This document shows, one piece after another, positions 30,565-45,057 of a stretch of 64,000 nt of DNA. The first letter of the stretch is position 1, and every line of letters begins with the position of its first letter. This DNA is from Melioribacteraceae bacterium (GTDB taxonomy: Bacteria; Bacteroidota; Ignavibacteria; Ignavibacteriales; Melioribacteraceae). A model generated the notes under the pieces. That model was not told the DNA's origin. It saw only the letters and a list, made by a program, of their open reading frames with translations, and ran no database searches. The position numbers and the translations under genes are program-made. Location of the stretch: contig BQMY01000077.1 of the NCBI GenBank assembly GCA_022181065.1, positions 1 through 64,000 on the forward strand, given 5' to 3'.

Positions 30565-31857
30565 ATGAGTGGAAAAATAGGAATACGTAAGGAAGATAAA
30601 AATATTTGGGAAAGAAGAGTACCGCTTATCCCTGCGCATGTTAAAAAATTAAAAGAAGAATTTGGTATTAATGCTATTGTCGAGCCATTTCGGAGGAGAG
30701 CATTTGCCGATGATGAATACAAGGCTGCCGGAGCAGAATTAGGCGATAATTTGTCGGATGCTGATTTCGTATTTGCGGTAAAAGAAATTCCGATGAAGTA
30801 TCTACAGCAAAATAAATCATATATCTTTTTTTCGCATACAATCAAAGGGCAGGATTACAATATGCCTCTTTTGCAGAAACTTCTCGATCTTAACTGTACG
30901 CTAATAGATTATGAAACTATGACCAACGATCAGGGACGAAGAGTTGTGTTTTTTGGTGTTTACGCAGGATATGCCGGAATGATCGATGCTCTGAACGGTT
31001 TGGGTATCAGACTCAGGGAACAGGGGATTCCTAACCGCTTTGAGGAGATAAAGCCTGCCTACGAATACGAAGATCTTGCGGACGCAAAAGAGAAAATTAA
31101 GGCGGTTGGCGATAAAATTAAGGAAGAAGGTCTGCCACTTTCCATCAGACCTTTGGTTTTCGGATTTGCCGGTTACGGAAACGTATCGAAAGGCGCGCAG
31201 GAAATCTTTGATCTACTACCATTCGAAGAAAAAACTCCTGATGAATTGCTTGAATTAAGCGAAGAGGAGAATAAAATCATCAAAGTGGTCTTCAAAGAAG
31301 AACATATGGTCAAAGAAAAAAATGGTAAAGATTTTGAACTGATGGATTATTATAATAATCCCGAAAATTATGAGTCGAATTTTGAAAAATATCTTGATAA
31401 AATAGATGTACTTGTAAACGCAATCTATTGGGATGAACGTTATCCGGTATTTGTTTCAAAAGCTTACCTTCAAGCAAACAAAGAAAATCTCAGATTAAAA
31501 ATTATCAGCGATATCACATGCGATATTGATGGCGCGATTGAAACAACTTTTAAATCTACTCCGAGCGATAATCCGGCTTTTGTTTATGATCCGTTTACTG
31601 ATAGCTATACTGACGGATACAAAGGACGAGGGGTTGTTGATATAGCAGTTGATAATTTACCCGCTGAAATGCCGAAAGATTCATCAGTTGGTTTTAGTAC
31701 CGCTTTATATCCTTTTGTACCCGGAATTGTGAACGCTGATTTTAGCAAAGATTTTGAAGAAGCAGGTTTTCCGCCGGAAGTTAAGAGAGCTGTAATTGTC
31801 TATAAAGGTGAACTCACACCAGATTACAAGTATCTTGAGGAATATCTTAAAAGTTAA
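30565..31857 (+). CDS. Stand-alone lysine-ketoglutarate-reductase-type protein
   Basis: The 430-residue protein matches the LKR half of the eukaryotic bifunctional aminoadipic semialdehyde synthase along its length. Key blocks are IGIRKEDKNIWERRVPLIP, FFSHTIKGQDYNMPLL, LIDYETM, VFFGVYAGYAGMI, the Rossmann GFAGYGNVSKGAQ, NAIYWDERYPVF, SDITCDIDGAIE, and YPFVPG near the end. LKR condenses lysine with 2-oxoglutarate to saccharopine using NADPH. The saccharopine dehydrogenase half is absent, and no separate copy is in the window. The related alanine dehydrogenase family is less likely given these blocks. An AGGAG precedes the ATG. An intergenic element follows. Confidence 0.85.
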   Translation: MSGKIGIRKEDKNIWERRVPLIPAHVKKLKEEFGINAIVEPFRRRAFADDEYKAAGAELGDNLSDADFVFAVKEIPMKYLQQNKSYIFFSHTIKGQDYNMPLLQKLLDLNCTLIDYETMTNDQGRRVVFFGVYAGYAGMIDALNGLGIRLREQGIPNRFEEIKPAYEYEDLADAKEKIKAVGDKIKEEGLPLSIRPLVFGFAGYGNVSKGAQEIFDLLPFEEKTPDELLELSEEENKIIKVVFKEEHMVKEKNGKDFELMDYYNNPENYESNFEKYLDKIDVLVNAIYWDERYPVFVSKAYLQANKENLRLKIISDITCDIDGAIETTFKSTPSDNPAFVYDPFTDSYTDGYKGRGVVDIAVDNLPAEMPKDSSVGFSTALYPFVPGIVNADFSKDFEEAGFPPEVKRAVIVYKGELTPDYKYLEEYLKS

Positions 31858-31862
31858 ATTTA

Positions 31863-32116
31863 TAGCGGGGCATTACCCCAGTCTGTTGACAAAGTCGTTT
31901 CGTTTTAAGGTCCTCCTTGGAAGGAGGTGGATTCCGACGAATGTCGGAAGACGGAGGATGATTTATTGCATTTTTTGTGTCTTTTAGTCATCCCCCATCA
32001 CAAAATCCGCCGCTGGCGGAGTGATTTCCCCCTTCAAACCTGTGCGCCTCAGGCGTAAGGGGGATGTGAAAATCAACAACCGGGTTTTTCAACAATCTCT
32101 AGCGGGGCATTACCCC
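31863..32116. repeat. Dispersed intergenic element, copy A
   Basis: A palindrome-rich element is bracketed by identical 17-bp sequences TAGCGGGGCATTACCCC at 31863-31879 and 32100-32116. Inside (31880-32099) are near-terminal inverted repeats (CTGTTGACAAA near the left; TTTTTCAACAATCT near the right), the hairpin CCTCCTT-GG-AAGGAGG, and TTCCGAC-GAAT-GTCGGAA. Long matches to the copy at 44433-44665 include the CCTCCTT hairpin through GACGGAGGATGATTTATT and TCATCCCCCATCACAAAA. No transposase or plausible gene is encoded. It lies between two same-direction genes. Confidence 0.88.
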
Positions 32117-32138
32117 GCTTACCTTAAATATCAATGTT

Positions 32139-42818: not shown

Positions 42819-43886
42819 ATGTATAAATATTCTATTATTGTCTTAATCTCCTTTTTTATCACCGCAGGCTTGTCAGCCCAGGATGATATGTTTTTTGAAA
42901 GAAACTATTCAATTGGCGGATACGGTGAACTCCATTACAATTATGTGAAACCGGAAAATGGTGAAGCGAAAAAAACTCTCGATTTTCACCGATTTGTGCT
43001 TTTTTATGGTTATAACTGGACCGAAAAATGGTCATTCAAGGCCGAAGTTGAACTTGAACACAATTATGTAGCGGATGATCATGGCGAGTTGGAATTGGAA
43101 CAGGCTTATGTTAATTATAAACATGCTGACTGGCTAAATTTTCAGGCGGGTGTTATCCTACCATCAGTCGGGTTGATCAATGAATATCATGAACCACCAC
43201 TATTTTTAAGCGTCGAACGTCCGGAGTACCATAGCAAAATTATTCCTACTACCTGGTTTGGTAATGGTATTGCGTTTACAGGCGTTTATAAAGATTTTGA
43301 TTATAAATTAGTAGTTATGGAAGGATTAAATGGGAATAAATTTAGTAATTCTTCCGGAATTCGCAGTGGAAGGCAGAAGGGTTTTAAGTCAAACGCTGAT
43401 GATTTTCTCTACAATGCCAGAGTTGATTACTATGGTATTACCGGACTTAAAGCGGGCGCGTCAATTACATATAATAAAGCTTTTCATGATGTTGAGAAAA
43501 TTCCATTTACACTTTTGGAAGTTCATGCATCATACTATCACAACAATGTATATGCAGTATGTGAATATGGCAACATTAGTTATGACAATTTCGAAATTGG
43601 AAGTTCAAGCGGTTTTTACGCTGATTTGGGATACAATGTTGGCTCATGGCTAAAGCTTGATAGTGAGTTGATTCCATTTGTTCGTTACTCCGATATTAAT
43701 CCCGCAGCGACCACACTAACGGGCGGGGATTCCGAGTTAGCGAACCATTCAACAAAAATGATGGCAGGATTGGCATTTAAGCCCATTCCAGAAGTAGTTT
43801 TCAAATTGGATTATTCAATACAGAAGTTTGAATTAAACGATCAGAAGACAGATCTGCTAAATATTGGCGCAGGATACATGTTTTGA
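42819..43886 (+). CDS. Porin-like outer-membrane protein
   Basis: The reading frame extends upstream to a GTG at 42786, but ATG 42819 starts a clean signal peptide (MYKYSIIVLISFFITAGLSAQ), giving 355 residues. The mature part is a phosphate-selective-porin-type barrel: YSIGGYGELHYNY, DFHRFVLFYGYNWTEKWSFKAEVELE, QAGVILPSVGLINEYHEPP, and a C-terminal strand LNIGAGYMF ending in Phe. An FMN-binding gene starts one base after its stop, so the two are an operon. The substrate is not evident. Confidence 0.88.
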   Translation: MYKYSIIVLISFFITAGLSAQDDMFFERNYSIGGYGELHYNYVKPENGEAKKTLDFHRFVLFYGYNWTEKWSFKAEVELEHNYVADDHGELELEQAYVNYKHADWLNFQAGVILPSVGLINEYHEPPLFLSVERPEYHSKIIPTTWFGNGIAFTGVYKDFDYKLVVMEGLNGNKFSNSSGIRSGRQKGFKSNADDFLYNARVDYYGITGLKAGASITYNKAFHDVEKIPFTLLEVHASYYHNNVYAVCEYGNISYDNFEIGSSSGFYADLGYNVGSWLKLDSELIPFVRYSDINPAATTLTGGDSELANHSTKMMAGLAFKPIPEVVFKLDYSIQKFELNDQKTDLLNIGAGYMF

Positions 43887-43887
43887 T

Positions 43888-44415
43888 ATGAGACTAATTA
43901 TTATTCTACATATGCTATTTTGTGTGACGCTTTATGCCGGAATGAATGATGATATTTACACAATGTTATTTGAAAAATACGGCGAATCAAGTAAAATCAC
44001 TCATGTAAATATTAAAGTTGATCCCGGGCTAAAATCAATCATTGAGATGAAAACCGGGCAGAAATTTTTCAGAGATAATTTGCATTGTTATAAAATTTTG
44101 GATGCAAATGGTAACACCTATACCGGTCTGCTGGATAATGTTTATGGTAAAACTTTACCAATTACTTTTCTCGTTGTTTATGATGAGACGGGGAAGATAA
44201 ATGACTGCTTTATTGTGAAGTACAGAGAACCCAGAGGTTACGGGGTAAAGCAGCAGAGTTGGCTGAATCAGTTTGTGGGGAAAGATGCAAACTCAGAATT
44301 TAAAGTAGGTAGTGAAATTCATGGTATTACAGGATCTACTATTTCAGTAAACTCGGTTGCCAGAGGAATCAGAAAATTATCCATTCTGTATGAAAAGCTA
44401 AAAAGTGAATTATAA
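43888..44415 (+). CDS. Periplasmic FMN-binding domain protein
   Basis: ATG 43888 begins one base after the porin stop and gives 175 residues with a signal peptide (RLIIILHMLFCVTLYAG). The C-terminal FMN-binding domain contains HGITGSTISVNSVARGIRK, the Gly-(Ser/Ala)-Thr flavinylation motif of RnfG/NqrC-type domains, whose Thr carries FMN after ApbE action. GYGVKQQSWLNQFVGK also fits. The protein is a candidate periplasmic electron carrier. No ApbE or membrane oxidoreductase is in the window. It is followed by the intergenic element, copy B. Confidence 0.85.
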   Translation: MRLIIILHMLFCVTLYAGMNDDIYTMLFEKYGESSKITHVNIKVDPGLKSIIEMKTGQKFFRDNLHCYKILDANGNTYTGLLDNVYGKTLPITFLVVYDETGKINDCFIVKYREPRGYGVKQQSWLNQFVGKDANSEFKVGSEIHGITGSTISVNSVARGIRKLSILYEKLKSEL

Positions 44416-44432: not shown

Positions 44433-44665
44433 AAGCGGGAAGTTTATCCCGCTTCAGGCTGTTGACAAACTAGTTTTTTTTAAGTCCTCCTTGGAAGGAG
44501 GTGGATTCCGACAAATGTCGGAAGACGGAGGATGATTTATTTCATTTTATGTGACTTTTGGTCATCCCCCATCACAAAAAACGTGATTTCCCCCCTTCAA
44601 AAGGGGGACTTGAAAATCAACAACCAGGTTTTTCGACAATCTCAAGCGGGAAGTGATTCCCGCTT
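44433..44665. repeat. Dispersed intergenic element, copy B
   Basis: A second copy of the element at 31863-32116. It is bounded by two near-identical hairpins: AAGCGGGA-AGTTTA-TCCCGCTT (44433-44454) and AAGCGGGA-AGTGAT-TCCCGCTT (44644-44665). The interior repeats CTGTTGACAAA near the left, the CCTCCTTGGAAGGAGG hairpin, TTCCGACAAATGTCGGAAG, CATCCCCCATCACAAAA and the right-hand AAAATCAACAACCAGG. It lies between convergent genes and could also act as a terminator region. Confidence 0.88.
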
Positions 44666-44670
44666 ATATT

Positions 44671-45057
44671 TTAATGTCTGCAATGAGCATTTTCGAGTAT
44701 ATTCAACTCACCTTTTTCGAACAGAATTGCAGCCGTATCGGCAACATTCTCATCGGTGATGACAGTTTTGATATTTTTTGAAGCAAAATCATCAACAAGT
44801 CTCTTGCCCATACCTTTTGAAATCAGAACGTCCATCTCTTTCAGCGCGTCTGTAAGTGAATCATGGCTATGATTATGTTCTGAGTGGTTATGTTGAGAAT
44901 GATCGTGATTTCCCTTGCCATGATGCGTGAAGTTATTTTCAATTTCTGATTTTGATTTTATTTCTCCTGCCTCTACATCATAAATCATAAACCCGGCACA
45001 TCTTCCAACATGACCACTAACAGTGACAAAATCGTCTGTTGATATTGCAATTTTCAT
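44671..45057 (-). CDS. NifX/NifB-type Fe-Mo cofactor domain protein with His-rich insert
   Basis: A 128-residue dinitrogenase iron-molybdenum cofactor domain protein (MKIAISTDDFVTVSGHVGRCAGFMIYDV). These small proteins bind metal clusters or metal ions. A His-rich insert follows (about residues 43-68, THHGKGNHDHSQHNHSEHNH), which should bind Ni, Zn or Cu. The C-terminal half ALKEMDVLISKGMGKRLVDDF and ILENAHCRH is typical. No nitrogenase gene is nearby, so nitrogen fixation is not implied. A metal-storage or redox role is inferred. Confidence 0.9.
   Translation of the reverse strand: MKIAISTDDFVTVSGHVGRCAGFMIYDVEAGEIKSKSEIENNFTHHGKGNHDHSQHNHSEHNHSHDSLTDALKEMDVLISKGMGKRLVDDFASKNIKTVITDENVADTAAILFEKGELNILENAHCRH

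Follow-up and report, generated by a model that had tools for sequence, protein, structure and literature searches.

The window considered here is the whole 64,000-nt stretch of contig BQMY01000077.1 from a Melioribacteraceae bacterium (positions 1 to 64,000, forward strand). It holds two copies, A and B, of a short element of the IS1182-type MITE kind, each enclosed by a pair of repeats and each placed just beyond an ORF. The features of the two loci are as follows:

30565-31857, plus strand: ORF upstream of copy A.
31863-31878, no strand assigned: left repeat of copy A, TAGCGGGGCATTACCC, a hairpin with an incomplete 3' arm.
31879-32099, plus strand: copy A element, IS1182-type MITE of 221 bp, one hairpin loop of which contains an additional small palindrome.
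32100-32120, no strand assigned: right repeat of copy A, an exact TAGCGGGGCATTACCC at 32100-32115 inside the complete hairpin AGCGGGGCATTACCCCGCT.
43864-44415, plus strand: ORF before copy B, ending 17 nt 5' of the left hairpin of copy B; one of two convergent neighbours.
44433-44454, no strand assigned: left copy of the presumed duplicated target hairpin of copy B, 22 bp, AAGCGGGAAGTTTATCCCGCTT, from flank comparison and a dyad test.
44455-44643, plus strand: copy B element, IS1182-type MITE of 189 bp.
44455-44472, plus strand: left terminus of copy B, CAGGCTGTTGACAAACTA, with 3 mismatches to CAGACTGTTGACAAAGTC.
44627-44643, plus strand: right terminus of copy B, GGTTTTTCGACAATCTC, with 1 mismatch to GGTTTTTCAACAATCTC.
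44644-44665, no strand assigned: right copy of the presumed duplicated target hairpin of copy B, 22 bp, AAGCGGGAAGTGATTCCCGCTT.
44671-45057, minus strand: convergent ORF after copy B, its stop 5 nt past the right hairpin of copy B.

The two elements are 93% identical over 103 nt and 90% identical over 50 nt, and copy B together with its repeats is predicted to fold strongly on either strand (z -9.3 and -8.8). The first-pass annotation had claimed that the two ends of copy B carry the same hairpin with a differing loop, and this was borne out: all 16 stem bases agree between left and right, while three of the six loop bases differ. Its parallel claim for copy A was correct as well, the 16-bp repeat being exact at both ends; the left repeat runs into the element and lacks part of the 3' arm, and the right repeat is extended to a full hairpin. 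The 16-bp repeat of copy A did not form a significant hairpin in the stem-score shuffle test and was 2.5 bp off centre (locus L009). In copy A, a 19-nt unit, CCTGTGCGCCTCAGGCGTA, is nested inside a hairpin loop of the MITE (32039-32057), and likewise in many other copies. The unit also occurs at loci L131, L134, L136 and L138 of genome G033, it largely explains the 200- and 221-bp length classes of the MITE, and a 24-nt stretch matching it is present in another genus of the same order. At the start of the window there are four direct repeats with a spacing of 188-189 bp (1-865), and beyond them lies an inverted repeat of 75 nt whose arms occupy 956-1030 and 1375-1449.

Both copies belong to a large family in this genome (4.9 Mb, 164 contigs). 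The core motif, at no more than three mismatches, gave 57 + 48 matches (about 105), compared with 0 + 2 for the reversed control. The consensus is CAGACTGTTGACAAAGTC for the left terminus and GGTTTTTCAACAATCTC for the right one, and the element reads CAGACTGTTGACAAAGTC...CAACAATCTC. From the fetched loci, 110 distinct profile hits were collected, including fragments and side families, and 52 of them had both ends; these copy counts come from mismatch-limited searches, and a first look scored 40 of 184 candidates. The elements are short (189 and 221 bp here), multi-copy and without a transposase gene, as MITEs are. We found that the element is constant between copies and the hairpin sequence is not. 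A longer MITE pattern gave no match in a scan of genome contigs. Among 164 genomes of the order, with at most four scored candidates from each, full copies were found only in the genome of origin, and partial matches of 24-57 nt occurred in three others.

At L089:750-1750, five element-profile hits stand in tandem, about 209 bp apart. Twelve contig ends (L046, L057, L081, L085, L092, L094, L104, L118, L119, L140, L149 and L150) break inside CCTT..AAGG hairpin loops of the MITE, at a long IS with the ends CAATGGCGTCAACTTAGTGG and CAATGCTGTCAACTTAAGGG. The left and right junctions of this IS suggest a 10-bp palindromic duplication, about CCTTYRAAGG, so this IS, too, may seek out hairpins. The end of a second IS, GTCCTGAAATAGGTTGAC, lies at the same spot of the right arm of the MITE at six contig ends (L098, L101, L108, L141, L142 and L154).

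The relationship between the two flanks of each copy was scored by overlap alignment, ending at the left boundary and starting at the right boundary of the element. The mean score was 28.7 for the own left and right flanks of the 52 two-ended copies and 5.9 for the 2652 cross pairs. Of the 52 own pairs, 36 scored above the 99th percentile of the cross pairs, 29 above the 99.9th percentile and 22 above the best cross pair. This extends to the family what had been noticed on the two copies of the window, namely that ends are alike within a copy and unlike between copies. Repeats were accepted at a score of at least 20 and an identity of at least 70%, thresholds which we set ourselves, and 37 of 52 copies passed. 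One of them, L121, was rejected as a long TSD, since its 62-63 bp repeat starts within the element sequence and represents a tandem duplication; this duplication (L121:720-1060) takes in the element's right end, a short piece of flank and the target hairpin. With L121 removed, 36 of the 52 two-ended copies have direct repeats, of 12-38 bp, and in these the covariation of left and right hairpins that had been proposed as a check is found. Low identity excluded L090 and L029, and the score of 13 copies was under 20. Five of these 13 (L003, L014, L022, L023 and L083) have related but diverged hairpins by eye, and eight are without any repeat. Unrelated left and right ends, named in the first-pass annotation as the observation that would speak against its reading, are thus confined to a minority, that is, these eight copies judged by eye and the two relatives L248 and L261 described below.

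Most of the repeats were hairpins. The stem score beat at least 95% of 200 shuffles in 31 of the 36 repeats, and the dyad was no more than 1 bp from the centre of the repeat in 29 of these 31, with lengths of 15-30 bp. When L121 is counted, the fold of 30 of the 37 repeats was better than that of any of their 100 shuffled versions; single-base shuffles were used in both tests. The repeats without a significant hairpin were those of copy A (L009), L016, L019, L034 and L060, and L008 and L127 were significant but off centre. Moreover, the 8 nt outside the left repeat contain 55% A, compared with 34% further out, and the 8 nt outside the right repeat contain 57% T, compared with 36% further out (37 copies, L121 included). 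An A-run outside the left repeat and a T-run outside the right one fit a single terminator, A and T runs included, which was split by the insertion. Differences between the two repeat copies fall on 17 of 494 stem sites and 18 of 141 loop sites (Fisher p 9e-5; 32 significant hairpins including L121), indicating that many of the hairpins retain their stems. In several copies, for example L097, the repeats stop one or two A-T pairs past the G+C stem, though the A/T runs could pair further, which suggests that the ends are set by the opened hairpin and not by the longest possible palindrome.

The possible mover of the MITE was sought in the same genome and elsewhere. No autonomous partner with MITE ends was found in the genome of origin, whose assembly breaks at multi-copy ISs, at contig ends, and the absence of a resident parent therefore proves little. 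The sole IS1182 transposase of the genome that exceeds the cut-off (C95) has other ends, AAGGGGCTGACTAAAAAG. A DDE_Tnp_1 search found three places in the genome, none with MITE ends, and two of them belong to an element ending in CACTAGTGTCCGGTTAA. These resident DDE transposases were rejected as parents since their ends differ.

The exact 18-bp left end occurred in at least 109 stretches of other genomes when GTDB r220 contigs were scanned; by our own estimate from base counts, with equal base use, chance alone would give about 7. Four such loci were tested, from Lentisphaera marina and from Clostridia, Erysipelothrix and Nitrospirae MAGs, and their transposases next to this end scored 341-486 bits against NF033551 (IS1182, cut-off 270). 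The consensus left end of the MITE is thus identical over 18 bp to that of ISs whose transposases pass NF033551, and the right ends of the MITE and of the IS1182 elements are related (TCAACAATCTC versus TCAACAGTCTG). Among the matches listed, a hairpin with a score of at least 15 abuts the end in 72 of 108 distinct termini, compared with 4 of 107 control windows taken 100-160 nt upstream. Some of the relatives with two ends are of MITE size, among them L240 from Caldanaerobacter subterraneus, which is 253 bp long and has a 20-bp repeat, and L256, at 188 bp and with a 25-bp repeat. A candidate right end was located for 46 of the 108 listed termini, and 11 gave a repeat score of at least 28; right ends were picked with a bias toward the repeat, and many of the other candidates are probably due to chance. 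The L. marina and plasmid cases below have intact termini and are independent of that choice. Centred hairpins were present in all eight cases from other genomes. In L248 and L261, both full-length relatives, the hairpin at one end is unrelated to that at the other, a mismatch that could be explained by recombination between copies.

A scan of 391 genomes of the class for the terminal inverted repeats, allowing one mismatch, gave 17 hits in 11 genomes besides the genome of origin and 17 for the reversed pattern, and so no overall excess. It led to L173 in genome G240, an IS whose 388-aa transposase is of the IS5_4 type (265.8 bits) and whose terminus, CAGGCTGTTGAAAAAGTC, is nearly identical. 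This weaker lead has an apparent 4-bp TSD, CTAG, so that similar ends can accompany a short target.

In L. marina, one IS of 1572 bp is present at five places, four complete and one interrupted, and its copies are 99-100% identical; the two halves of the interrupted copy gave separate matches, and one additional match covered 24 nt. All five are flanked by repeats, of 14, 15, 22, 23 (one mismatch) and 24 bp, and four of the five repeats are significant centred hairpins; the 14-bp repeat is not (p 0.075). As the copies are nearly identical, one kind of transposase made all five repeat lengths. A tblastn search with the L. marina transposase gave matches in 328 plasmid records, of which 12 were fetched, mostly from plant, soil or food organisms. 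All 12 of these IS1182 copies had perfect whole-hairpin direct repeats of 18-28 bp, with ends within 1 bp in two of them, and the hairpins were centred in all 12.

Unoccupied sites were sought for five of the 12 plasmid cases by joining the flanks with one repeat and searching the result against plasmids, and an unbroken site was found for four. The Bacillus site was present in five plasmids, its identity over 331 nt being 100% in four of them and 99.4% in the fifth, and the identities of the others were 99.7% for R. ruizarguesonis, 98.8% for R. leguminosarum and 97.2% for Rhizobium NLR16a versus R. anhuiense. For the Salinivibrio query, there was no unoccupied site among plasmids. The Bacillus and R. 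ruizarguesonis sites equal the joined flanks at 120 of 120 bases, with the repeat present once, and the remaining two differ from them at 2 of 120 and 5 of 121 columns. These sites directly show the duplication of a whole hairpin as target site in the relatives, and we infer the same event for copies A and B. No unoccupied site for copies A and B was found in 28 other genomes, all from outside the genus; eight of the 28 matched the site queries, seven in the neighbouring ORFs only and one (G028) over 36 nt inside the element core. Relatives with a single hairpin, which the first-pass annotation had proposed to look for, thus exist for four of five plasmid ISs and were not encountered for the two copies of the window themselves.

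Taken together, whole-hairpin repeats of variable length, and unoccupied sites with one hairpin, indicate a TSD with a length set by the target hairpin. The matching hairpins of the window most likely both go back to a single older transcription-stop hairpin that was duplicated when a small mobile element of the IS1182 kind landed there. The best explanation, to which we assign a probability of about 0.87, is that an IS1182 transposase acted in trans on a palindromic target chosen by shape and that the whole hairpin was duplicated, at a hairpin-like length. According to this mechanism, copies A and B would have been moved by an IS1182-family DDE transposase which selects its target not by sequence but by shape, as a palindrome that can fold into a hairpin or cruciform and is often an intrinsic terminator. 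Both element ends would be joined at the two feet of the palindrome, and gap repair would leave one whole hairpin on each side. The size of the duplication would then track that of the hairpin, at mostly 15-33 bp, with no fixed stagger. The attack at the cruciform feet is inferred. The earlier proposal that a pre-existing terminator hairpin had been duplicated is therefore supported by the copy-wise matching, the dyad centring, the outer A/T runs and the unoccupied sites of relatives.

Four other scenarios were weighed. First of all, insertion may have been guided by structure while the staggered ends were made by a structure-specific nuclease of the host, or by an attack at the replication fork on a hairpin in single-stranded form, and not by the transposase acting on a double-stranded cruciform. 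Variable ends determined by structure suit any cleavage at the hairpin foot, and our data are compatible with more than one cutting enzyme; yet the DDE chemistry of the family yields the same product without extra enzymes, and both feet are used symmetrically, so that we consider this scenario rather unlikely. Secondly, ordinary DDE transposition with a fixed stagger and a long TSD, as in the IS1202 subgroup, might prefer the neighbourhood of palindromes, the match to hairpin length being incidental. The TSDs of 16-28 bp in that subgroup (PMC10132070) do overlap the range found here. Against this, copies of one IS in one genome (L. marina) have 14-24 bp, and the dyads are centred in 29 of the 31 significant hairpins of the present genome, in all 12 plasmid cases and in all 8 cases taken from other genomes. 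The four transposases tested beside the 18-bp end belong to IS1182 and not to IS1202; a fixed stagger is accordingly very improbable. Thirdly, the hairpins could be terminal hairpins of the element itself, with the two ends kept alike by gene conversion, the other possibility raised in the first-pass annotation. Well-preserved copies with hairpins at both ends and stems better conserved than loops would agree with this idea. However, the hairpin varies by copy and the element does not, near-identical IS copies in one L. marina genome have different hairpins, and the unoccupied sites of relatives already hold one hairpin, by which conversion is refuted for the relatives. It is also not needed, as all five near-identical L. 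marina copies already have matching repeats, and for the MITE we find it scarcely credible.

Movement of the element as a REP/BIME unit by the REP-associated tyrosine transposase of the genome was rejected as having next to no probability: a RAYT-like gene does exist (L117:2187-2750; Pfam Y1_Tnp 27.7 bits, cut-off 23; NCBIfam REP_Tyr_transpos 69.1 bits, under the cut-off of 80) and about 65 bp upstream of its ORF there is a truncated end of the element, but the gene has flanking hairpins of its own (two GGGAGGGTCAGTRACCCTCCC), the hairpins of the element are unrelated between copies and contain no constant palindromic REP sequence, and the transposases encoded by full IS relatives sharing this end are of the IS1182 family. 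RAYT/HUH movement is not expected to produce TSDs.

Insertion into hairpins has precedents in the IS1182 family. For IS1272, the favoured pathway replaces the target stem-loop without a TSD, and a duplicating pathway b is drawn beside it as hypothetical (Wan et al. 2017, PMC5678879); blunt deletion of hairpins is described for IS1272/TnSha1, and a review is cited according to which some IS1182 members target palindromes (Furi et al., PMC4923244). As described in these two sources, IS1272 and TnSha1 resemble the present elements in belonging to the IS1182 family and in targeting hairpins that share no sequence consensus and in some cases are terminators or lie just downstream of genes, but they remove the target stem-loop wholly or partly and leave no TSD, while here the whole stem-loop is kept twice. 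Of the IS1272-type features, a hairpin target without consensus is thus shared, and loss of the stem-loop without TSD is not, since 36 of 52 copies are flanked by repeats.

The IS1202 subgroup has unusually long TSDs of 16-28 bp, as here, but its transposases are of another family, and no specific target was found for the long-TSD group (PMC10132070). Membership in IS1202 was rejected: IS1202 ends are 5'-TGT...ACA-3', the elements here start with CAG and end with CTG or CTC, and the four tested relatives encode IS1182 transposases. Bacterial MITEs such as Chunjie and QMITE2 (PMC10969869) are likewise small and numerous, with terminal inverted repeats and no transposase gene; unlike for the MITE studied here, the available portion of that source makes no mention of whole-hairpin TSDs of variable length. 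ISBspe1 and the other plasmid elements annotated as IS1182 family have related termini (CAGACTGCTGACAAACCCCT, CAGGCTGTTGAGAAAGTCTT) and whole-hairpin repeats, like the MITE; they are autonomous, with a transposase and about 1.52-1.59 kb, whereas copies A and B have 189-221 bp and no transposase. Termini common to autonomous IS1182 elements and a TSD in 36 of 52 two-ended copies characterize the MITE as one of the IS1182 family.

The data fit pathway b (Wan et al., PMC5678879) for a widespread part of the IS1182 family. No documentation of whole-hairpin TSDs was found in a literature search that did not extend to ISfinder or most subscription journals, and such TSDs may be known to curators; the available parts of PMC10969869, PMC10132070, PMC5678879, PMC4923244, PMC3733652 and PMC3196728 do not document them. 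The present cases provide natural examples, with unoccupied sites, of a pathway that Wan et al. (PMC5678879) present solely as a model.

We consider it fairly probable that a fixed stagger is lacking across a broad group of IS1182-family DDE transposases, that the secondary structure of the target sets where strands are joined and that the TSD length reads out the extruded hairpin. The terminator would be copied and not broken, resulting in a nearly harmless insertion that leaves each convergent neighbour with a hairpin of its own. TSD length is usually taken as a property of the transposase and is used in IS classification. Here it follows the shape of the target, and the duplications would record palindromes that are open in the living cell. 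The same process may also explain duplicated terminators in other genomes.
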